Assembly (NCBI RefSeq): GCF_035989305.1
Contig: NZ_CP108514.1
Coordinates: forward strand, 1,302,001-1,366,000
DNA length: 64,000 nt
DNA from: Streptomyces sp. NBC_01233
Lineage (GTDB): Bacteria > Actinomycetota > Actinomycetes > Streptomycetales > Streptomycetaceae
Direction of reading: 5' to 3'
Below are positions 11,372 through 53,239 of the stretch, piece by piece (position 1 is the first letter of the stretch; each line of letters starts with the position of its first letter). The notes beneath the pieces were generated by a model. The model was not told the origin of the DNA. It saw nothing but the letters and a program-made list of their open reading frames with translations, and made no database searches. A program made the position numbers and the translations under genes.

Positions 11372-12727
11372 TCAGCGCAGGTAGGCGAGCCCCGGGTGCT
11401 CCGCCGCGTACCCGTCGAGCAGCCGCCGCGCCACGGCCACGGAGTCCACCAGCGGGTGGAGCGCGAAGGCCTTGACGGCGGCCGCCCGGGATCCGCTTGC
11501 CGCGGCCTCCAGAACCTCCCGTTCGACGGCCTTGACGGCCGTCACAAGCCCCACCGCGTGCAGCGGCAGCGGTTCGACGCCGACCGGGTGGGCTCCGTTC
11601 GCGTCGACCAGGCAGGGCACCTCGATGACCGCCCCGGCGTCCAGGACCGACAGCGTCGAGCCGTTGCGGACGTTCAGGATCAGCGTGGCCCGCTCGTCCC
11701 GGGCGATGGCCCGCATCAGCGCGAGCGCGACCTTCTCGTAGCCGCCGGACTCCAGGTCGCTCTCGTCGCGCTCGCCGACGCCGGCCGCCTCGCGGTTCTC
11801 GGCCATGTACGTGGCCTCGCGCTCGGCCCGGGTCCGGTCCCAGGCGGCCAGCGCCGCCCCGGCCGGCCGGCCGGCCAGGCCGGCTTCGGCGTAGAAGCCG
11901 CGCTGCTGGTCGCGCAGGAATGCCCCGCGGGTCTGCCCGGCCTCCTGGTACGCCCGTACGGTGTCACGGTTGAAGTAGTAGTAGTGCAGGTACTCGTTGG
12001 GGATCGCGCCGAGCGAGCGCAGCCACTCGGCTCCGAAGAGCCGGCCCTCCTCGAAGGACTCCAGGGCCTTGGTGTCGGCCAGCAGCCGGGGCAGCTCGTC
12101 GCGGCCGCCGATGCGCAGCCCGCGCACCCAGCCCAGGTGGTTGAGGCCGACGTAGTCGATCCAGGCGTCCTGCGGCCGGGCCCCGAGCAGCCGGGCGATC
12201 CGCCGGCCGAGGCCCACGGGGGAATCGCAGATGCCGATCACCCGCCCGCCGAGCTCCTCGGCCATGGCCTCGGTGACCAGCCCCGCCGGGTTGGTGAAGT
12301 TGATGACCCACGCCTCGGGGGCGGTACGGGCGATCCTGCGCGCGATCGCGCGGGCCACCGGCACGGTCCGCAGGCCGTACGCGATGCCGCCCGCACCCAC
12401 CGTCTCCTGGCCCAGCACTCCCTCGGCCAGGGCGATCCGCTCGTCCGCGGCGCGCCCGTCCAGGCCGCCGACGCGGATGGCCGAAAAGATGAAGTCCGCC
12501 CCGCGCAGGGCCTCGTCGAGGTCCCCGGTGGCGGTGACGGCCGGGGCGTCCGGTACGCCGGCGGCCGCGGCCTGGTCGTCGAGGACGCGGGCCATGGCGG
12601 TGAGCCGCGCCGGGTCCTCGTCGTACAGCGTCACATGGGATACCCGGCCCTCGGCGTGGTCGCCGAGCAGCGCTCCGTAGACGAGCGGTACCCGGAAACC
12701 GCCTCCGCCGAGGATCGTCAGCCGCAC
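11372..12727 (-). CDS. GH4 family 6-phospho-beta-glucosidase-like enzyme
   Basis: A 451-residue glycosidase of family GH4, which uses NAD+ and a divalent metal for a redox-elimination mechanism. The N-terminal Rossmann loop reads L-G-G-G-G-F-R. The metal site is represented by C-D-S-P near residue 170 and G-L-N-H-L-G-W near 197. The N-F-T-N-P-A-G-L motif also matches. Likely cleaves 6-phospho-glycosides or related sugars. No sugar permease is adjacent. Upstream lies a 194-bp spacer with three CCACGATCG repeats, which may be its regulatory region. Confidence 0.9.
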
Positions 12728-12810: not shown

Positions 12811-12870
12811 CCACGATCGTGCCGGCGGCGGCTCCGGGGGCTCCAGTGCCACGATCGTTGCCACGATCGG
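12811..12870. repeat. Three CCACGATCG sites upstream of the GH4 gene
   Basis: CCACGATCGT occurs at 12811-12820 and 12849-12858, and CCACGATCGG at 12861-12870. The last two start 12 bp apart, about one helical turn. Each contains ACGATCG, and the first two contain the palindrome ACGATCGT. The sites sit 84-143 bp before the GH4 start codon in a 194-bp non-coding spacer, which suggests operators for a sugar-responsive repressor. No other gene was found in the spacer. Confidence 0.45.
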
Positions 12871-12921
12871 TGACACGGAATCCGAGGCGCGCGCCCGCCG
12901 GCACCAGTCTGCCCCGGCCGG

Positions 12922-13911
12922 TCACTCCCCCAGCGACGGCACGGCGCGCAGCCGGGCACCCTGCTGGTGCATGACCCCGGCGCCGCCCCGTACGGGACCC
13001 ACCGGCGCGCCCGGCGGGGCCGACAGGACCAGGGTGATCCGCGTCAGCCCCATCGCCTCCAGCATCCGGCTGGTCTCGGCCACCATCCGGCAGCGCACCA
13101 GCCCCCACCGCGGGTCGGGGTGGCGCACGGTCCGCACCGCCCCGTCCATCTCGGCGGCCTCGGCCCCGCGCATGCTCAGCCAGTGCGGCACCCCGTACCG
13201 GTAGGCGGCCTCCATGAACGGGTCACGGGCCACCTCCTGGCGGATGCTGCGCAGCCCCTCGTCCTCCGGAGCCGCGGCCAGGGCGGCCGCGAACTGGGCC
13301 AGCAGCGGTACGCACCAGGCCGGTTCGTGGTCCTCCAGCACGCCCGCCGCGTCCGGATGGAACAGCACGAAGCGCAGGAAGTTGTCGTCCGGCAGGGCCG
13401 TCGGGTGCGGCCGTACGGTCTGGAAGAGCTGGTCGAAGGCCGAGTTGGTGAGCGCGACGTCCCAGCGGTGGTCCACCAGGAAGCTCGGGTAGGGCACGGA
13501 CTCCATGAGGGCCGCGTAGTCGCACAAGTAGTCGCGCTGCGCGGGGTCCTCGGGCAGTCTGTTCTCCTCGGCGGCCCGCCACGTGGGCGGCGGGTCGCGG
13601 TCGACCATGACGCGGAACAGCCAGAAGCACTGCCGCTCGCTCATCTCCAAGGCCTCTGCCAGGGCGAGCAGTTTGCGGTCCGTCCACTCCTTGACGAGGC
13701 CGCGTTCCCAGTTCCCGTACGCACGCACGCTGATGCGCAGCCGGGCGGCGAGGTCCTCCTGGCTCAGCCCCAGCTCCTCGCGGCGTTGGCGCAAAATCTC
13801 CTTGCGTCGCTCCGACCGCACGGCGCCCCGTGCGGACTCCTCGCCCGCCAGGCGCTCCTCACCGGCTCGGGCGAGGCCATCGGACGGGCCCACCGCTGCG
13901 AGATGTGGCAC
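12922..13911 (-). CDS. MmyB-type XRE regulator
   Basis: A 329-residue regulator: an HTH_3-like domain at about residues 36-90 (R-R-E-E-L-G-L-S-Q-E-D-L-A-A-R-L, then Y-G-N-W-E-R-G) followed by an MmyB-like ligand-binding domain (P-S-F-L-V-D-H-R-W-D-V-A-L-T-N-S-A-F-D-Q-L-F, and later the W-G-L-V-R-C-R stretch). Related proteins bind fatty-acid-like ligands and control secondary or lipid metabolism. GTG 13911 is supported by a strong GGAGGAGGGGGAG ribosome-binding site. The gene lies upstream of GH4 on the same strand and is divergent from cassette 1. Confidence 0.88.
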   Translation of the reverse strand: MPHLAAVGPSDGLARAGEERLAGEESARGAVRSERRKEILRQRREELGLSQEDLAARLRISVRAYGNWERGLVKEWTDRKLLALAEALEMSERQCFWLFRVMVDRDPPPTWRAAEENRLPEDPAQRDYLCDYAALMESVPYPSFLVDHRWDVALTNSAFDQLFQTVRPHPTALPDDNFLRFVLFHPDAAGVLEDHEPAWCVPLLAQFAAALAAAPEDEGLRSIRQEVARDPFMEAAYRYGVPHWLSMRGAEAAEMDGAVRTVRHPDPRWGLVRCRMVAETSRMLEAMGLTRITLVLSAPPGAPVGPVRGGAGVMHQQGARLRAVPSLGE

Positions 13912-13991
13912 CGAGAGCTCCCCCTCCTCCGGTCTGGATCTTCATTTCCGTGTGGCGATCCTGCTACCGACTTCATTCGAGTGTCAACTAT

Positions 13992-14040
13992 TGTGGCAAT
14001 TCCAGCCTCTTGACAGCTCATTCCCGCCACAGCTGTGGCA
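13992..14040. promoter_or_regulatory. TGTGGCA sites and 14-bp palindrome in divergent spacer
   Basis: The heptamer TGTGGCA occurs at 13904-13910 (over the MmyB start), 13992-13998 and 14034-14040. The last overlaps a perfect 14-bp palindrome GCCACAGCTGTGGC at 14026-14039. The middle one sits in ATTG-TGG-CAAT. The sites lie between the MmyB-type regulator and the cassette 1 XRE gene, so either protein could bind them. A TAGATT -10-like hexamer is at 14069-14074, but I see no matching -35. Confidence 0.4.
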
Positions 14041-14127: not shown

Positions 14128-14796
14128 GTGACAGACGGCTTCCCGGCTCCCGTCGCGGTGGCCAACGCACCCCTGGCAGCCACCATCACGCGCGTCGCCG
14201 AACTCGCGGGCAAGATGGGCCGCAACCTGAACCACGTCTTCGACCTGCGGCGGCTCTCGGAGGCCTCCGGCGTGCCCACGGACGTGGTCAAGACCCTCCT
14301 CGACGGCAGGCCGGCCGGCGAACCCGATCTGCAGACCCGGTTCCTCCAGCGGCTCGACCTGCTGCGGCGCACCCGAGTCAAACCCAACGGCCGCCGCTAC
14401 ACGCAGCAGGAGATCGCGGACGGCGCCGGCATGTCACGGCAGCAGGCCGGGGCGCTGATCAACGGCGACCGCCGCCCCACCATGGAGCACTGCGACGCGA
14501 TCCAGCGCTTCTTCGGGGTGCACGCCGGGTTCCTCACGGCACACGACTCCGACGCCCTCACCGACGCGCTCCAGCGGACCGAGCAACAGCTGCTGCAGGA
14601 CTTCGCGGGGCGCGCGCGGGAAACCGTACCGGCCGCGGCCGCATCGGCGGGCGATCCGCTGGCAAGACTCCTCCAGAACCACGGCGTGCGGGGCATCGCA
14701 TGGCGCGCCGCCCAACTGCCCAGCGACAAGCACCGGGACAAGGTGACCGAATGGCTGGACATGCTCCTCGAAAGCGTAAAACCGAACGAGTCCTGA
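14128..14796 (+). CDS. XRE-like DNA-binding protein of cassette 1
   Basis: A 222-residue protein starting at GTG 14128 behind an AGGAGA ribosome-binding site. An early helical region (about 25-60: L-R-R-L-S-E-A-S-G-V-P-T-D-V-V-K-T-L-L-D-G) is followed by a clear XRE helix-turn-helix at about 80-130 (Y-T-Q-Q-E-I-A-D-G-A-G-M-S-R-Q-Q-A-G-A-L-I-N-G). Next come F-F-G-V-H-A-G-F-L and a C-terminal helical region. The same layout recurs in cassette 2. It is followed after 64 bp by a HELWH peptidase gene, so it is probably the repressor and substrate of that peptidase, by analogy with ImmR/ImmA and DdrO/IrrE. The substrate relation is inference. Confidence 0.85.
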   Translation: MTDGFPAPVAVANAPLAATITRVAELAGKMGRNLNHVFDLRRLSEASGVPTDVVKTLLDGRPAGEPDLQTRFLQRLDLLRRTRVKPNGRRYTQQEIADGAGMSRQQAGALINGDRRPTMEHCDAIQRFFGVHAGFLTAHDSDALTDALQRTEQQLLQDFAGRARETVPAAAASAGDPLARLLQNHGVRGIAWRAAQLPSDKHRDKVTEWLDMLLESVKPNES

Positions 14797-14816
14797 CCCA
14801 GTCGAAAGTCTGGGTC
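14795..14816 (+). promoter_or_regulatory. Stem-loop at the XRE/peptidase junction
   Basis: GACCCAG (14795-14801) and CTGGGTC (14810-14816) can pair around an 8-nt loop, beginning inside the XRE stop codon. There is no U-tract. It could tune message stability or the ratio of the two proteins, or act as a DNA operator. Confidence 0.4.
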
Positions 14817-14860
14817 TGATCCTTGAGTCCTGATCCGGATCCGCGCCGACGGGGAGAACG

Positions 14861-15418
14861 GTGAGCATAGGCAGAGAGCAGCGGCGGTTGTGCGGGGAGC
14901 TGGTGGCCGGCATCCGGCTGACCGCACCCGTGGAACCCGTGGACCTCTACGCTGCCCTCTGCGAGGGCATGAGCAGACACCGCGGCCGACGGGTGGACTT
15001 CCGGATGGCCTCGTTCCCCCCGCGGACGGCCAGCGGCCTCTGGCTCGACATGGCGGACCGCGATCTCGTGGTCATCGAGGAACGCACCGCTCCCGACCAC
15101 CAACTGGTCATCCTGGGCCACGAGCTGTGGCACATGAAGGCCGGCCACTGCAGCCACCACGTCGACGGCGCCGCCGTCGCGGCGCGGCTGCTGACCGACG
15201 AGGCGGACATCGGAGAGACCGTCCGCCGCGTCGCGGCGCGCACGCGCGCGGACGTACAGGAGGAGACCGAGGCCGAAACCTTCGGCTTACTGCTGGGCAG
15301 TCGGTGCCGGAACTGGCTGGCCGGATCGGCCGGCCACCGGGCTCCGGTCCAGCGCGACCAACTGGCGGGCCGCATCGAGGCATCGCTGGGCTACCGGGGG
15401 CACAGGAACGACCGTTGA
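14861..15418 (+). CDS. ImmA/IrrE-like zinc metallopeptidase of cassette 1
   Basis: A 185-residue protein from GTG 14861. The zinc motif is H87-E-L-W-H91 with the downstream acidic ligand in A138-E139-T-F141, as in ImmA/IrrE (COG2856) peptidases that cleave XRE repressors. The conserved core V-D-F-R-x-A-S-F-P-P-x-T-A-S-G-L-W-L is shared with the cassette 2 peptidase. Streptomyces genomes often label such genes as a toxin component. Codon 143 is TTA (15287-15289), unusual in this high-GC genome and a sign of possible bldA dependence. The stop overlaps the TTG start of the membrane protein (TTGA). Confidence 0.85.
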   Translation: MSIGREQRRLCGELVAGIRLTAPVEPVDLYAALCEGMSRHRGRRVDFRMASFPPRTASGLWLDMADRDLVVIEERTAPDHQLVILGHELWHMKAGHCSHHVDGAAVAARLLTDEADIGETVRRVAARTRADVQEETEAETFGLLLGSRCRNWLAGSAGHRAPVQRDQLAGRIEASLGYRGHRNDR

Positions 15419-16584
15419 ACGGCGAGGACTACTACATACCGGCGGCCGCCATGGCGATCTCACTCGCCTTCAAGCTGCCGGCCCTGCGGCACAACTGGCG
15501 CGACCCGCTCCTGCGTTCGGTCGTCGCCCTGCTGACTCTTGCGGGAGCGGTGTTCTTCTTCGCGGCCCCGCCCACCATCGCGGCGGTCAACCGCTGGACC
15601 GGGATCGTCAACGTCTCGGCCCCCCTGGTGTACTGCCTGATCACCGCCTTCAGCGCCTCCTGCCTGGTCCTGATGGTCAACTGGCGGGGCGGACCGCCCG
15701 AACAGACCCGACGCGTCTCGCGCCGCTGGATCACGGGCTACAGCCTCGTGATCGTGGCCCTGATCGTGCTGTTCGCCCTCGGTGACACCCCGGTGGAGCG
15801 GCTGCGCGACTTCGACACCTTCTACGCGAACACCCCGTACATCGGGATGATGATCGCCCTCTACCTGCTGGCCCACCACGTGGCCGCGGTGGTGATGGTG
15901 GTCCTGTGCTGGCGCTGGTCCCTGCAGGTGCGCGGCTGGCTGCGGGTCGGCCTGATGATCATCGTCTCCGGCTACATCTTCAACCTCACCTACGACGCCA
16001 CCAAGATCTCCTCGGTGGTCGCCCGCTGGCTGGGCCACGACCTCGACGACCTGAGCACCTACGTCGCCCCGCCGCTCGCCGCCCTGGGCGCGCTGATCAG
16101 CGCGATGGGCTTCGTGGTCCCGCTCGTCTGCCAGCGGCTGTCGGACCACTGGCAGACCTGGGCGACGTACCGCCGGCTCGGCGCGCTGTGGCAGGAGGTG
16201 CAGATCTCCGCGCCCAGCGGCACGCCCTCCGTGCAGATGGCCTGGTGGTCCGCGGCGGAACTGCGGGTCATCCAGCGGGAGTCGGACATCCACGACGGCT
16301 TCCTGCACCTGGGCCCGTACTTCGACAAGGGCCTGCGCGACGGCGCCTACGAGAACGCCGTCGCCGCAGGGGCCGACGAGGAGACCGCCCGCGCGGTCGC
16401 CGACGCCGCCATGGTCGCGGCCGCCGTGCGGGCCCGCTCCGCGGACCCCGAGGGCAAGATCATCGGCGAGGACGAGGAGACCCGGCTCGACACCGCCGAC
16501 GTACCGCGCGACCTGCTGCGGATCTCCCACGCCCTGCGGCATTCACCGGTCGTGCAGGCGGTCCGTCAGCACGTCGCGGTCTAG
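15415..16584 (+). CDS. Seven-TM DUF6545 / MAB_1171c-type membrane protein of cassette 1
   Basis: A 389-residue protein if TTG 15415 is used. That start overlaps the peptidase stop and gives the N-terminus N-G-E-D-Y-Y-I-P-A-A; ATG 15451 is the alternative. About seven hydrophobic helices cover residues 5-245. The loop motifs A-A-P-P-T-I-A-A-V-N-R and G-D-T-P-V-E-R-L-R-D-F-D-T-F-Y-A identify the MAB_1171c/DUF6545 group. A soluble C-terminal part of about 140 residues (W-W-S-A-A-E-L-R-V-I-Q-R-E-S-x-I-x-D-G) faces one side of the membrane. Called a putative transporter in databases, but its position beside a repressor and peptidase suggests a sensor or effector. Function unproven. Confidence 0.82.
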   Translation: MNGEDYYIPAAAMAISLAFKLPALRHNWRDPLLRSVVALLTLAGAVFFFAAPPTIAAVNRWTGIVNVSAPLVYCLITAFSASCLVLMVNWRGGPPEQTRRVSRRWITGYSLVIVALIVLFALGDTPVERLRDFDTFYANTPYIGMMIALYLLAHHVAAVVMVVLCWRWSLQVRGWLRVGLMIIVSGYIFNLTYDATKISSVVARWLGHDLDDLSTYVAPPLAALGALISAMGFVVPLVCQRLSDHWQTWATYRRLGALWQEVQISAPSGTPSVQMAWWSAAELRVIQRESDIHDGFLHLGPYFDKGLRDGAYENAVAAGADEETARAVADAAMVAAAVRARSADPEGKIIGEDEETRLDTADVPRDLLRISHALRHSPVVQAVRQHVAV

Positions 16585-16602: not shown

Positions 16603-17379
16603 TCAGCGGGCCGCGGCCACCGCCGTCTTCGGGAACAGGTCCTGGAACGGCCCCGCGGAGTCGATCCCGTCCCGCCCGTAGGGCGCGTCGAAGCTCCACA
16701 CCATGAACAGCAGGAACACGATCAGCGCGCTGAACAGACCGGCGAGCAGCAACTCCCGCCCGGAGCGGCGGATCTGCAGGGTGAAGATCAGCCCGACGGT
16801 CACCACCCCGCCGACCAGCAGCCCGAACCACACCACGCTCGGCAGCGTGGACTCGGAGCTCTGCGTCCGCGAGTGGCGTGCGTCGTCGGCGGCCGCGATG
16901 TGGTCCAGCAGCGGCTGGTAGGCCTGTGCCTGGAGCTCGGTGGCCGGGCTCTGGTGGGTGACGTCGCTGCGCAGCTTGCCCAGCAGCTGGGCGCCCTCGG
17001 CCGACGCGCCCTCGCCGGAGGTCAGCAGCGGCCAGTCCACGGCGACGGTGTGGGAGACGTACGCGTCCACCTCGCCGCGGATCCGGTCGCGGACCGCGGA
17101 CGGGTAGACGTCGGCGCGCTGGGTGACCTCGTACAGCGCCTGGGCCTCGCGGCGCACGCTGTCCTCCGCGGCGCCGCGCGCCTCCCAGACGCCCGCGATG
17201 GCCAGGCCCAGCACGATGGCGTAGACCACGCCCACCATCATCGTCATATACTCGATGACGTCGGGGGTTTCGCTGGTGTCCTCGTCGTCCGCGGCCCGGC
17301 GGTGCCGGATCGTGGTGATGGCGAGGACGACGGCGCAGACGAGCGCCATGGCGATGGCCAGGACCAGCCATTCGGACAC
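16603..17379 (-). CDS. DUF4239-family membrane protein
   Basis: A 258-residue protein with two hydrophobic segments near the N-terminus (residues 4-22 and about 45-65) and two near the C-terminus (about 180-200 and 208-228), separated by a soluble helical region. This matches DUF4239 (bestrophin-like) proteins. Bestrophins are anion channels, but transport by this family is not established. ATG 17379 is clear. It ends convergently 18 bp from cassette 1 and lies downstream of the Pro-rich membrane protein on the same strand, 77 bp away. Confidence 0.8.
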   Translation of the reverse strand: MSEWLVLAIAMALVCAVVLAITTIRHRRAADDEDTSETPDVIEYMTMMVGVVYAIVLGLAIAGVWEARGAAEDSVRREAQALYEVTQRADVYPSAVRDRIRGEVDAYVSHTVAVDWPLLTSGEGASAEGAQLLGKLRSDVTHQSPATELQAQAYQPLLDHIAAADDARHSRTQSSESTLPSVVWFGLLVGGVVTVGLIFTLQIRRSGRELLLAGLFSALIVFLLFMVWSFDAPYGRDGIDSAGPFQDLFPKTAVAAAR

Positions 17380-48871: not shown

Positions 48872-49906
48872 GTGCGAGCCGCCGCCCGACCCGATCTCGC
48901 CGTGATCTGGCGGCGCGTCGAGGCGCTGTCGGTGCGGCGTGGTCAGGATCCGGCCGGGGTGCTGGGCCTGGGGCGGCTGAGTCATCTGTCCGGGGTCGAA
49001 CCCGGGCGCATAGCGCAGGTGGTGGCGGGCACGGCGGCCGAGGTGCCGCTGGAGCAGCGCGTGCACCAGCGGTTCCTGCGGCTGCGCGCCACCCGCCGGG
49101 ACAAGCACGGCCGGGAGTGGCCGCTCGCCGCCATCGCCGACGACTTCGACGCACCCGGAGCCTCCCTCGGGCCGCTCAACGCGGGGACCGGGCTGCCGCG
49201 GATGGGGCACGCGGCAGGCGTGCAGCGGTTCTTCGGGGTCTACGCCGGCTTCCTGCTGGCCGACAGCAAGAGCGCGGTGGAGCGGGCCCTCGCCCTCTCG
49301 GCCACCGCCGCCGCCACCACCACCGCCAACGCCAACGCCACCGCCGTCCCGGACGGCCGGGACGACCTGGAACACCTGTCGTACCTCACCGGCATGAGCC
49401 CGCAGGCCATCCGGCTCACCCTCGACGGCGAGCCGCCCCGGCTCCCCCTCAAGGAGCAGGTGCACCACCGGTTCGAGCACCTGCGCCGGACCCGCGTACG
49501 GGAGGACGGCCAGCCCCATTCGCTCGCGGCCATCGCCAAGTCCTTCGACGCGTCGGGCCAGTCGCTGACCCGCGTCGCCCAGGGCGAGGGCCTGCCGAAC
49601 CTCGCCGCGGCCGCCGGGATCCAGCGGTTCTACGGGGTCGAGGGCGGTTTCCTGCTGGCCGACGACACCGAGGCGCTCGCCACCGCACTCTCCCTGATCG
49701 AGGCCGAACTGGAGTCCGGGGAGCGGGAGCAGGAGAACCCGATGCTGGCCGTGCTGCGGGCGCACGACGTACGGAGCATCGTGACGCGGGCCGGCCGGCT
49801 CTCCCCGCGGGGCTGGAAGTCGCTCGCCGACCACTTGGACGACCTGCTCGCGCGGGAGGGCCAGCTCGGCCGTCCGGCGGAGCCCGACGAGGGGGGAGCG
49901 CCATGA
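48872..49906 (+). CDS. XRE-like DNA-binding protein of cassette 2 (tandem module)
   Basis: A 344-residue protein from GTG 48872, which has GGAG nine bases upstream; ATG 48857 is an alternative. It contains two copies of a module that appears once in cassette 1: R-F-L-R-L-R-A-T-R-x6-W-P-L-A-A-I-A-D-D-F-D...Q-R-F-F-G-V-Y-A-G-F-L-L-A-D (about 65-140) and H-L-R-R-T-R-V-x5-H-S-L-A-A-I-A-K-S-F-D...Q-R-F-Y-G-V-E-G-G-F-L-L-A-D (about 195-275). An Ala/Thr/Asn linker separates them. The C-terminus (V-R-S-I-V-T-R-A-G-R-L-S) matches that of the cassette 1 protein. ATGA overlap with the peptidase gene. Confidence 0.8.
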   Translation: MRAAARPDLAVIWRRVEALSVRRGQDPAGVLGLGRLSHLSGVEPGRIAQVVAGTAAEVPLEQRVHQRFLRLRATRRDKHGREWPLAAIADDFDAPGASLGPLNAGTGLPRMGHAAGVQRFFGVYAGFLLADSKSAVERALALSATAAATTTANANATAVPDGRDDLEHLSYLTGMSPQAIRLTLDGEPPRLPLKEQVHHRFEHLRRTRVREDGQPHSLAAIAKSFDASGQSLTRVAQGEGLPNLAAAAGIQRFYGVEGGFLLADDTEALATALSLIEAELESGEREQENPMLAVLRAHDVRSIVTRAGRLSPRGWKSLADHLDDLLAREGQLGRPAEPDEGGAP

Positions 49907-50487
49907 GGACCACACGGGCGATGCGCAGGCTCGGCGGGGATCTGCTCGCCGACGCGCGGCTGACGCCGCCAGCCTGCGCCGCCGATATCATCGGCGCGCT
50001 GTGCACCGCGTACGGCCGGCGGCGCGGCGGTCGGAAGGTCGACTTCCGCTTCGCCTCCTTCCCGCCCGACACGGCCAGCGGGCTGTGGCTGGAGATGGAC
50101 GCGCGCGATCTCCTCGTCATCGAGGAACACACCCGCCCCGAGCACCAGCTCGTCATCGCCTGCCACGAGTTGTGGCACGTGTACGAGGGCACCTGCGACA
50201 GCCACGGACCGGGCATGGCGGTGGCCGCCCGGCTGACGGGCGACGCGGACGGCGCGGACGGCCGCCGGGGCGGCCTCACGGAGCTGCTGCAGTCGGACAC
50301 CGGTCTGGGCACGGTGGTCCGGCAGGCCGCCGCCCGCGCGGACCGGGAGGACCCAGCGGAGATCCGGGCCGAGATCTTCGGCCTGTACCTCGGCAAACTC
50401 CTGAAGCCCTACCTGCCGCCTCCCCGGGAAGAACAGGTCCCCGAGGCGATCGAGCGCATCAAGACCTCGCTCGGCTGGGGGCGTTGA
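49903..50487 (+). CDS. ImmA/IrrE-like zinc metallopeptidase of cassette 2
   Basis: A 194-residue paralogue of the cassette 1 peptidase. Zinc motif H88-E-L-W-H92 and acidic ligand in A156-E157-I-F159; the core V-D-F-R-F-A-S-F-P-P-D-T-A-S-G-L-W-L-E-M is nearly identical. Unlike cassette 1 it has no TTA codon. The likely role is proteolytic inactivation of the adjacent XRE protein (inference from ImmA and IrrE/PprI). An 86-bp spacer precedes the monooxygenase gene. Confidence 0.85.
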   Translation: MRTTRAMRRLGGDLLADARLTPPACAADIIGALCTAYGRRRGGRKVDFRFASFPPDTASGLWLEMDARDLLVIEEHTRPEHQLVIACHELWHVYEGTCDSHGPGMAVAARLTGDADGADGRRGGLTELLQSDTGLGTVVRQAAARADREDPAEIRAEIFGLYLGKLLKPYLPPPREEQVPEAIERIKTSLGWGR

Positions 50488-50573
50488 GCGTCACGCCGGT
50501 GACCTGCACGCCGCCCCCGCCGCACCCCTTGCGCCGATGCCCTCAGCACGGCCCTGACAGAGAGCACGACACG

Positions 50574-52007
50574 ATGACCCAGTCTTCCCCGCCCCGCCAC
50601 GCCGTCGTCATCGGCGGCAGCATGGCCGGCCTGCTCGCGGCCGCCGTCCTGGCCGAGCACGCCACGGTCACGATCATCGACGCGGACACCCTCCCGGACA
50701 GCCCGGCGCCGCGCCGCGGACTGCCCCAGGCCCGGCACGTCCACGTCATGTGGTCCGGCGGGGCGCGTGCGATCGAGGACATCCTGCCCGGCATCACCGA
50801 GGACTGGACGGCGGCGGGCGCGATCCGCCGCAGCCTGCCCACCGACCTGGTCACCAAGACCGCCGAGGGCTGGATCCCGCGCTGCGCCGAGATGCAGTTC
50901 AACATCTCCTGCAGCCGCGACCTCCTCGACTCGGTCGTCCGGGCCCGGGTGACCGCCCTGGAAGGGGTCTCCACCCTCCAGCAGAGCCGCGTCCGCGGCC
51001 TGGAGGGCACGGCGGCCCGGATCACCGGCGTCCGCGTCGACACCCCGGAGGAGGAGGGCAGGTTCGTGCCCGCCGACCTCGTGGTCGACGCGAGCGGACG
51101 CGGCTCCCGCGCCCGCACCTGGCTGCAGGAGCTCGGCGTCGGCGGCATCCGGCAGGCCGAGGTCGACTCCGGCCTCGTCTACGCGACCCGCATCTTCGAG
51201 GCGCCCGCCGGAGCCCACGAGTCCGGCTTCCCGATAGTCAACGTGCAGTCCGACCCCCGCGTGCCCGTCCCGGGCCAGACGGCCACGATCGTGCCCATCG
51301 AGAACGGCCAGTGGCAGGCCACCCTCTCCGGCACCCGCGGCGGCCAGCCGACCGGCGACCCCGACGCGTTCATCCCGTTCGCCAAGGGCATCCGGGACCC
51401 GATCGTCGGCGAGCTCCTGGAGGGCCGCAAGCCCCTCACCGACGTCGCCGTCACCAAGGGCACCGCGAACCGGCGGATCTTCTTCGAGAAGGTCGAGCTG
51501 CCCGACGGCTTCTTCGCCGTCGGCGACTCGGTCGCCACCTTCAACCCGCTGTACGGGCAGGGCATGACCGTCGCCGCCCAGGGGCTGCTGGCCGTACGCT
51601 CCCTGCTCCGGGCCAGGGGGCTCGCCCACCCGGCCTTCGGACGCGAGGCGCAGCGCGCGATCGCCCCGCAGGTGGCCACCGCCTGGGACCTCGCCACCTC
51701 GCAGGACATCCTCTACCCCGGCGCCACCGGCATGAAGCCGCGGACCGGAGCCGGGCTGCTCAACGCGTACGTCAGCCGGCTGATGACGGGGGCCACCACC
51801 CGGGAGGCGCTGACCGCCGCCTTCCTCCAGGTCATCACCATGAGCAGCACACCCACCCACTGGCTCAAGCCGTCGGTGGTCTGGAACGTCCTGCGCGCCT
51901 CCGACCGCGGCGCGCTGAAGGCTCCGCCGCTCACCTCCGCCGAGCGGACGGTCGCCGGGCTCGACCAGCGGGCCGATCCGGCCGACCCCGTCGGCCGGGC
52001 CCGGTGA
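50574..52007 (+). CDS. FAD-dependent monooxygenase of cassette 2
   Basis: A 477-residue group A flavoprotein: V-V-I-G-G-S-M-A-G-L-L-A-A at 11-23 (FAD), D-L-V-V-D-A-S-G-R-G-S near 170 and A-V-G-D-S-V-A-T-F-N-P-L-Y-G-Q-G-M near 315 (second FAD motif). Q-A-R-H-V-H-V-M-W-S-G-G resembles a subgroup annotated as FAD-dependent monooxygenase beside MAB_1171c-type proteins. It hydroxylates or epoxidises an unknown lipophilic substrate. The stop overlaps the GTG of the membrane protein (GTGA), so the two are coupled. Confidence 0.87.
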   Translation: MTQSSPPRHAVVIGGSMAGLLAAAVLAEHATVTIIDADTLPDSPAPRRGLPQARHVHVMWSGGARAIEDILPGITEDWTAAGAIRRSLPTDLVTKTAEGWIPRCAEMQFNISCSRDLLDSVVRARVTALEGVSTLQQSRVRGLEGTAARITGVRVDTPEEEGRFVPADLVVDASGRGSRARTWLQELGVGGIRQAEVDSGLVYATRIFEAPAGAHESGFPIVNVQSDPRVPVPGQTATIVPIENGQWQATLSGTRGGQPTGDPDAFIPFAKGIRDPIVGELLEGRKPLTDVAVTKGTANRRIFFEKVELPDGFFAVGDSVATFNPLYGQGMTVAAQGLLAVRSLLRARGLAHPAFGREAQRAIAPQVATAWDLATSQDILYPGATGMKPRTGAGLLNAYVSRLMTGATTREALTAAFLQVITMSSTPTHWLKPSVVWNVLRASDRGALKAPPLTSAERTVAGLDQRADPADPVGRAR

Positions 52008-53239
52008 AGAGCGGCCTGATCCTCTACGTGCCCGGGGCGCTCCTGGTCCTGATCCTGCTGGTCAAGGCGCCCACCCTGCGGAGGAGGTGGGACCAGCCGC
52101 CGATGCGGGCCGTCTGCGCGCTGCTGGTCATGGGCTGCCTCGTGCTGATCCTGGCGGCGCCACCGACGATCGCGGCCGTCAACCGCTTCACCGGGGTGGC
52201 CAACTTCTCGGCCCCGCTGGTGTTCGGCCTGATCACCGCGTTCTCCGGGTCGTGCGTCGTGCTGGTCCTGCAGTGGGGCGGCGGCCCGCCGGCCGTGGTC
52301 CGCCGGGCCACCCGGCTGACGGTGGCCGTGTACGGCGGGGTCACGGTGGCGATCGTCGTCCTCTTCGCGATGGGCGACGCGCCGGTGGAACGCCTGCGGG
52401 ACCTGGACACGTACTACGCCGGCACCCCGTGGATCCGGGAGATGATCGTCTGCTATCTGCTGGCGCACACCGTCGGCAGCTCGGCACTGACCGTGCTGAC
52501 CGGGCGGTGGCTGCGCCGCACCCACCCCTCCCTGCGGCCGCTGCGCACCGGGCTGGCCCTGATCATGACCGGCGGGCTGCTGGACCTCGGCTACCTCGTC
52601 GCCAAGTGGACCGCGCTGGGCGCGCGCTGGAGAGGCCGCGACTGGGACGGCCTGTCCACGGACGCGGCGCCGCCGCTGGCCGCGGGGGCGGCCCTGATGG
52701 TGGCGACCGGCTTCATCGTGCCGCTGGTCGGCGGGTCGGCGACCTGGCGGGACTTCTGCGAGTACCGGGGGCTGCACCCTCTGTGGAAGGCGCTGCGGGG
52801 CTTCGCCGCGTCCAGCGTGCGGACGGTTCCGCTCACCTGGTGGTCACCGGTCGGGATCCGGCTGATCCACCGCGAGTCCGTCATCGACGACGGGATCCTG
52901 GCCCTCACCCGATGGTTCGACCCGGCCGTACACCGGACCGCGTACGAGGCCGCGCGCGGGCAGGGCATGAGCGAGGCCCGGTCCGAGGTCGTCGCCGACG
53001 CCGCCATGCTCGCCGCCGCGTGCGGCCGCAGGACCGCGGCCGCCGCCCCTGCCGCCGATGCGGATGTGCATGCCCACGCCGTCACCACCGGAACGGATGC
53101 CGGCACCGGCACCGGCTCCGTACCGCTCCGGCACTCCGAGCCGCCCCGCCTGTCCGGCCAGCCCCTGACCGCCCTGGCCCGCGAGTTCCGCGCCTCCCCC
53201 ATCGTCGCCGCCGCCCGGGCCGCCGCCGTACGGGCCTAG
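52004..53239 (+). CDS. Seven-TM DUF6545 / MAB_1171c-type membrane protein of cassette 2
   Basis: A 411-residue paralogue of the cassette 1 membrane protein: the same L-A-A-P-P-T-I-A-A-V-N-R, F-S-A-P-L-V-F-G-L-I-T-A-F-S and G-D-A-P-V-E-R-L-R-D-L-D-T-Y-Y-A motifs, about seven helices, and a soluble tail with W-W-S-P-V-G-I-R-L-I-H-R-E-S-V-I-D-D-G. The tail has an extra Ala/Asp/His/Thr-rich insertion before the end (A-R-E-F-R-A-S-P-I-V-A-A-A). GTG 52004 overlaps the monooxygenase stop. Transport, sensing or effector function is not known. Confidence 0.83.
   Translation: MKSGLILYVPGALLVLILLVKAPTLRRRWDQPPMRAVCALLVMGCLVLILAAPPTIAAVNRFTGVANFSAPLVFGLITAFSGSCVVLVLQWGGGPPAVVRRATRLTVAVYGGVTVAIVVLFAMGDAPVERLRDLDTYYAGTPWIREMIVCYLLAHTVGSSALTVLTGRWLRRTHPSLRPLRTGLALIMTGGLLDLGYLVAKWTALGARWRGRDWDGLSTDAAPPLAAGAALMVATGFIVPLVGGSATWRDFCEYRGLHPLWKALRGFAASSVRTVPLTWWSPVGIRLIHRESVIDDGILALTRWFDPAVHRTAYEAARGQGMSEARSEVVADAAMLAAACGRRTAAAAPAADADVHAHAVTTGTDAGTGTGSVPLRHSEPPRLSGQPLTALAREFRASPIVAAARAAAVRA

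Follow-up and report, generated by a model that had tools for sequence, protein, structure and literature searches.

A repeated Streptomyces cassette of an XRE regulator, an M78-like peptidase and a DUF6545 membrane protein, probably a switch acting mainly on its own locus

IrrE, PprI and CapP are proteases that cut their repressors (PMC7907104, PMC10904395), and in the repressor DdrO the cleavage falls between L106 and R107 (PMC7907104). ImmA/ImmR of ICEBs1 is likewise a two-gene pair of an XRE protein and an M78 peptidase (PMC2701414), and as of 2021 it was unclear what activates M78 peptidases apart from IrrE (PMC7907104). Here we analyzed a window, meaning throughout the whole stretch of 64,000 nucleotides (contig NZ_CP108514.1, positions 1,302,001 to 1,366,000), from the 10.3-Mb genome of Streptomyces sp. 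NBC_01233. It contains one after the other the genes of an XRE regulator, an M78-like zinc peptidase and a membrane protein of the DUF6545/MAB_1171c family, the TTG start of the last one sharing TTGA with the stop of the peptidase gene; a preliminary description of this DNA had placed the three genes and their overlap correctly on the plus strand. This gene set recurs across Streptomyces and is probably a switch that controls mainly its own locus. Its parts resemble known repressor-protease switches, while neither the membrane partner nor what it does has been described. In the open-licence PMC literature, DUF6545 was named in no paper found and MAB_1171c in one, and searches on M78, XRE and Streptomyces, or on the family names with P450, showed among the papers listed no title or abstract about such a unit, in line with the earlier statement that the three-part arrangement has no described function.

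We looked for the cassette in 41 related genomes, using gene calls from a simple caller (7 of 96 DUF6545 genes escaped it and were treated at the level of the open reading frame). The cassette is common in Streptomycetaceae: DUF6545 occurs at 97 places and the peptidase, searched with a 44-sequence profile, at 107 places, each in 36 of the 41 genomes. Both are present in 35 genomes and neither in 4; DUF6545 is alone in G008, at a contig end, and a weak peptidase match is alone in G040. For 89 of the 97 DUF6545 places a peptidase gene of the same orientation is found upstream at up to 4.5 kb, and the other eight divide into four at contig ends, three with a rearranged peptidase nearby and one without. 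Seen from the peptidase, DUF6545 follows within 4.5 kb downstream at 82 of 107 places. The remaining 25 are eight orthologs of the window cassette (cassette 1), three odd arrangements, five places near short-contig starts or contig ends, one ortholog of a second cassette in the window (L119), four weak matches (E 8e-5 to 5e-4, or 1.9e-5) and four others (G024:C3, G039:C190, G029:C9 and G032:C422). An odd order was seen at L007, in the same genome as the window (G000:C1 8171641-8173397), where XRE and peptidase genes lie downstream of DUF6545; further odd arrangements are those of G029:C12 (L088) and G037:C108 (L101).

With our own XRE profile only, an XRE gene was found upstream for 48 of the 92 DUF6545 genes having 1.2 kb of upstream sequence, and XRE and peptidase genes are adjacent and co-oriented in the window and in 22 orthologous loci. 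Among 149 genomes sampled from the phylum, 5 had DUF6545 and 12 had the peptidase; all 5 with DUF6545 also carry the peptidase, which is upstream of 11 of the 13 DUF6545 places. The order XRE-peptidase-DUF6545 is far from chance. We also compared the trees of the partners. Peptidase and DUF6545 distances correlated with a Spearman coefficient of 0.69 (69 pairs, 32 genomes), and shuffling partners only within genomes averaged 0.34 and peaked at 0.54, with 0 of 999 shuffles reaching the observed value, so that the co-variation of the two proteins extends to paralogs within a single genome. Across 45 full triples, the three pairwise correlations were 0.74, 0.78 and 0.67 with permutation maxima below 0.2, species relatedness being ignored in this comparison. 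The idea of a three-gene unit, for which the preliminary description had suggested a synteny search, is therefore strengthened by the upstream peptidases and by this co-variation.

The same description had the membrane protein fixed into the unit, and this went too far. Our 23 orthologous loci are the window, L016-L027 (12 loci, all Streptomyces), L047, L080 and L108-L115. The eight loci L108-L115 are without DUF6545 and retain XRE, peptidase, two operator-like sites (O1 and O2, see below) and a divergent gene; no DUF6545 remnant was recognisable in them (best tblastn E 4.3). In a tree of concatenated XRE and peptidase sequences they fall inside a group with the DUF6545-bearing L026 and L080, seven together and L114 apart, with weak ultrafast bootstrap values (66-80) at the relevant nodes, and the six outgroup cassettes all have DUF6545. 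Considering this placement and the outgroups, DUF6545 was probably lost from L108-L115, perhaps twice.

The double operator between the XRE gene and the divergent gene is new here. All 23 orthologous loci retain the O1 consensus, O2 is exact in 22 (L027 has one mismatch), and the start-to-start distance is 44 bp in all of them. When the window is compared with 10 distant loci, identity is 0.94 over O1 and O2, 0.57 between the sites and 0.45 in the rest of the intergenic region, L027 being omitted as it was misplaced by the alignment. On the minus strand O1 contains TTGACA in 23 of 23 loci, followed 18 nt on by CAGGAT in 19, which may serve as promoter of the divergent gene. Between the two sites, TTGAC is present in 21 of 23 loci and could be a -35 element of the XRE operon, with no good -10 seen; a sigma-70 scan reported no promoter at the locus, including the element of the divergent gene. 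The likely binder of both sites is XRE, because loci whose called divergent protein is without a helix-turn-helix (HTH) retain them too.

We asked how far such a switch would reach. In 12 genomes chosen for carrying the cassette, exact O1 has one copy per genome, at the cassette, and with up to 2 mismatches it still has a single place in 10 of them; the extra sites are one in G024 (2 mismatches) and two overlapping ones near the cassette in the genome of the window. A reversed O1 used as control matched only twice in the 12 genomes, once in G014 and once in G024 but never in the genome of the window, and since the control also matches at that rate, the G024 site is at chance level. The two overlapping sites lie upstream of a glycosyl hydrolase family 4 (GH4) gene that adjoins the locus in 11 of the 22 other orthologous loci; 3 of these 11 (L019, L024 and L047) have no O1 match at that position even when 3 mismatches are allowed. 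The stretch holding them (window 12840-12880) is a fast-changing micro-repeat of GATCGTGTCACC-type units. A wider O1 regulon was therefore rejected, the G024 site being at chance level and the GH4 sites lying in a species-variable micro-repeat, and the GH4 gene is an unproven target. Within the reach of the two-mismatch search, these results suggest that the switch is local.

Taken alone, O2 is weak: it is exact in a single copy in the 10.3-Mb genome, but at up to 1 mismatch its reversed control gave 47 and 50 matches against 5 and 5 for O2, and at 2 mismatches shuffles of the window often equal its count. The case rests on O1 and on the fixed O1/O2 pair. Operators common to other cassettes were also considered and rejected, as among 65 XRE upstream regions the pair was found in 3 only (window cassette 1, L047 and L080). 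An O1-like site is present at L036 with 3 mismatches and at L087 with 4, and a looser O2 pattern matches L054 and L076.

By sequence, a gene like the MmyB-like one of the window, with its MLTR_LBD ligand domain, is divergent from XRE in 23 of 23 orthologous loci (Pfam was run on three, the window, L108 and L110). This ligand-domain gene is a constant fourth part of the locus. The preliminary description had its three genes right and overlooked this one together with the shared double operator. In the window clade the divergent protein has an HTH, whereas in 11 loci (L026, L027, L080 and L108-L115) the called protein has 189-236 residues and starts within the ligand domain or shortly ahead of it, and Pfam found the ligand domain alone in those of L108 and L110. 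In MltR, this domain bound a fatty acid (PMC3406030). A 223-residue protein with MLTR_LBD only, SLCG_7083, alters growth, sporulation and glucose use in S. lincolnensis (PMC10717218, whose main text has no mention of SLCG_7082 or SLCG_7084). The MLTR_LBD match covers residues 30-131 in SLCG_7083 and 31-125 in L110, a likeness by length and Pfam match alone.

For the peptidase, the HELWH motif read earlier at H87-H91 stands. HExxH is present in 53 of 53 non-redundant copies, and H87, E88 and H91 are invariant across 44 aligned diverse peptidases. Behind this motif the invariant acidic residue of the 44 is E135, in the arrangement E135-x-x-A138-x-x-F141 with A138 at 90% or more. An ExxAxxF downstream of HExxH is the third-ligand motif of M78 peptidases, and these peptidases have it. 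Judging from this alignment, E135 is a more likely third zinc ligand than E139, the residue proposed before. In single-sequence searches the window peptidase had no Pfam or NCBIfam match, PF06114 included, and for this reason we call it M78-like without assigning it as a member; PF06114 was matched by 10 of the 44 relatives at E ≤ 0.01 (best 1.5e-4). The predicted fold is nearest to IrrE, PprI and CapP, and a PDB profile search gave nothing below E 0.067. Profile similarity and predicted fold, M78/IrrE-like, thus agree with the earlier reading as ImmA/IrrE-like and characterize the protein as a divergent relative of ImmA/IrrE/CapP.

The XRE protein has HTH_3 at residues 91-134 (Pfam, E 4.1e-9), the HTH being placed within 77-134, with an additional N-terminal segment ahead of it. 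Its conserved C-terminal VRxxAxR motif is common to the XREs, R193 being kept in 32 of 33 aligned; 26 of the 33 have L, A, M or F just before it, and the window protein has W. By analogy with DdrO, this hydrophobic-Arg pair at 192/193 hints at where a cut might fall but is itself no evidence of cutting.

The DUF6545/MAB_1171c assignment of the membrane protein, made before, was confirmed above both curated cut-offs (PF20182, E 2.3e-14 and 54.4 bits against 24.4; NF042915, 146.7 bits against 100). In a predicted model, seven long helices form a bundle resembling G protein-coupled receptors (GPCRs), followed by a cytosolic helical DUF6545 domain (residues 246-375); the seven transmembrane helices announced earlier are found in this model, while a simple hydropathy count gives five. 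The cytosolic part is somewhat better conserved, and a PDB profile search gave nothing below E 0.43. Tandem DUF6545 genes, two per peptidase, were observed at L029, L030, L036, L041, L043, L073, L079 and the plasmid loci L142 and L144, and such genes behind one peptidase might be receptor pairs.

Taking these results together, a local derepression switch is the best explanation, and we consider its steps evenly balanced between right and wrong when all are taken together. XRE would bind O1 and O2, 44 bp or about four helical turns apart, and so silence the operon to which it belongs as well as the divergent MLTR_LBD gene, whose -35 would be covered by O1; from the conservation of the operator-like sites, this autorepression is very probable. 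The M78-like peptidase would then inactivate XRE, most likely through a cut in the C-terminal domain close to 192/193, so that both promoters open, a step that we consider likely by analogy with its relatives. Where present, the DUF6545 protein may be a receptor-like subunit passing a signal from outside or from the membrane to the peptidase via its cytosolic domain, a role that we infer weakly and rate slightly under an even call. In other cassettes a neighboring oxidoreductase (FAD enzyme, P450) or another enzyme would be the output. A broader idea, which we find rather unlikely, is that DUF6545 proteins are GPCR-like receptors acting by regulated proteolysis: ligand, bundle, cytosolic domain and peptidase would lead in this order to the destruction of XRE, a swappable enzyme (FAD monooxygenase, P450, PAP2-like, SDR or amidohydrolase) would act on or make the ligand, and several private circuits would coexist in one cell.

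Several other explanations were weighed, not all of them exclusive of this switch or of each other. The loci L108-L115 make DUF6545 dispensable for keeping the core of repressor, protease and operator and give room to the possibility that the switch consists of XRE and peptidase alone, with DUF6545 as its output (a transporter or membrane enzyme) and not as a sensor. Its last place in the window operon, the enzymes occupying the downstream position in other cassettes and the NCBI name of its relatives, "MAB_1171c family putative transporter" (among the 120 matches listed out of 556), point in the same direction, as does a knockout of MAB_1171c in Mycobacterium abscessus that had about half the biofilm (PMC8707978; the paper says transporter, and the passages available from it hold no transport data). 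Against it stand the scarcity of DUF6545 without the peptidase (89 of 97 have it upstream) when the enzymes vary, its co-variation with the peptidase, the GPCR-like predicted topology and the somewhat better-conserved cytosolic part, so that we regard this output role as possible but doubtful. The signal may instead be carried by the MLTR_LBD protein, which would respond to a fatty-acid-like or furan-type ligand and act on XRE or the peptidase, with DUF6545 as accessory. Its gene accompanies 23 of 23 orthologous loci with or without DUF6545, and the fatty acid in MltR (PMC3406030) and the phenotypes of SLCG_7083 (PMC10717218), which the short form resembles in length and Pfam match, would fit; as this gene was checked in the present cassette subfamily only and that resemblance goes no further, we hold this to be somewhat unlikely.

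Peptidase relatives are often named "toxin-antitoxin system, toxin component" (among the 120 matches listed out of 1010), the peptidases of plasmid copies are annotated as toxin component or hypothetical, and COG2856-XRE pairs are among the toxin-antitoxin candidates of Biol Direct 2009 4:19 (PMC2701414). XRE as antitoxin and peptidase as toxin is nonetheless quite improbable in our view: the closest folds are those of repressor-cleaving regulators, neighbors are retained in the window clade (the GH4 gene in 11 of 22 other loci), and the same paper proposes cleavage of the XRE repressor and sees the pair as maybe a generic regulator. Even less probable, to the point of being hardly credible, is a control module of a mobile element like ImmR/ImmA of ICEBs1. 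The protein pair is of the same type and plasmids carry copies, one of three examined being typed mobilizable, but against it stand the retained neighbors, the lack of a clear second O1 target in the genomes and the absence of any peptidase match among 50,697 phage records at E ≤ 1e-5.

The genes following DUF6545 on the same strand were clustered from 74 gene calls with gaps of at most 250 bases. We found 19 oxidoreductases of the flavin adenine dinucleotide (FAD) type (two scanned, with weak flavoprotein Pfam matches only), 11 cytochrome P450s (one scanned), 7 NlpC/P60 proteins, each after a P450 (one scanned), 7 copies of a small membrane protein (one scanned, sub-threshold PAP2), 3 amidohydrolases, 3 short-chain dehydrogenases/reductases (SDRs), two pairs and singletons. 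Cassette 1 of the window has no enzyme gene directly behind DUF6545 on the same strand; a convergent bestrophin-like gene (PF14023, window 16603-17379) comes directly after it. A second, divergent cassette is present in the window, its XRE-like protein and peptidase identified by our own profiles only, with no Pfam match; in a similar one from another genome, L119, the gene call for DUF6545 is shortened (162 residues). DUF6545 and the peptidase each have matches in 25 plasmid records, all Streptomyces, and in three plasmid copies (Streptomyces sp. NBC_01276, S. violaceusniger pSTRVI01 and Streptomyces sp. NBC_00158) the order is HTH, peptidase, one or two MAB_1171c proteins and FAD enzyme. As to a role in defence, PADLOC gave weak matches for XRE only and none for the peptidase or the DUF6545 protein.

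Features of the locus and of the second cassette (window coordinates)
Feature	Position	Strand	Remarks
XRE regulator	14128-14796	+	222 residues; GTG start; GGAG resembling a ribosome-binding site
M78/IrrE-like zinc peptidase	14861-15418	+	185 residues; HELWH at residues 87-91; likely third ligand E135
DUF6545/MAB_1171c-family membrane protein	15415-16584	+	389 residues; TTG start; Pfam/NCBIfam and predicted model
O1, operator-like site	13982-13998	+	TGTCAACTATTGTGGCA; minus-strand TTGACA inside (13982-13987)
O2, operator-like site	14026-14039		perfect palindrome GCCACAGCTGTGGC; starts 44 bp from O1 start
Divergent MmyB-like gene	12922-13911	-	HTH and MLTR_LBD ligand domain; PF17765, 43.8 bits
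Promoter-like element of divergent gene	13958-13987	-	TTGACA (inside O1), 18 nt, CAGGAT
TTGACA, possible -35 of XRE operon	14010-14015	+	between O1 and O2
Two overlapping O1-like sites	12847-12875	-	2 mismatches each; upstream of GH4 gene 11372-12727; weak
Second cassette	48872-53239	+
XRE-like gene, second cassette	48872-49906	+
Peptidase gene, second cassette	49921-50487	+
FAD oxidoreductase gene, second cassette	50484-52007	+	between peptidase and DUF6545
DUF6545 gene, second cassette	52004-53239	+

In conclusion, the co-variation of membrane partner and peptidase, together with sister loci lacking this partner, offers a natural comparison for the question of how M78 peptidases are activated, and the rare and strongly conserved double operator is a ready reporter. 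The locus also places a PAS-type family of growth and sporulation regulators (SLCG_7083-like) beside a protease switch. Compared with the IrrE/PprI-DdrO system of Deinococcus, where IrrE has an added GAF-like domain and a DNA-repair regulon is controlled (PMC7907104), the peptidase of the present locus is short and accompanied by a membrane partner, and the operator is single and local. It differs from CapP/CapH of CBASS (cyclic oligonucleotide-based antiphage signaling systems) by the DUF6545 and MLTR_LBD genes alongside, and from ImmA/ImmR by its extra partners and by showing no sign of an integrative element, although no search was aimed at integrases or attachment sites. The conservons of Streptomyces are also repeated multi-gene signaling cassettes, some of them ending in a P450, but they consist of different proteins, with no kinase or GTPase among the three window genes. 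The proposed circuit finds its analogy in BlaR1-BlaI, which combines a membrane sensor, a zinc protease and a repressor.

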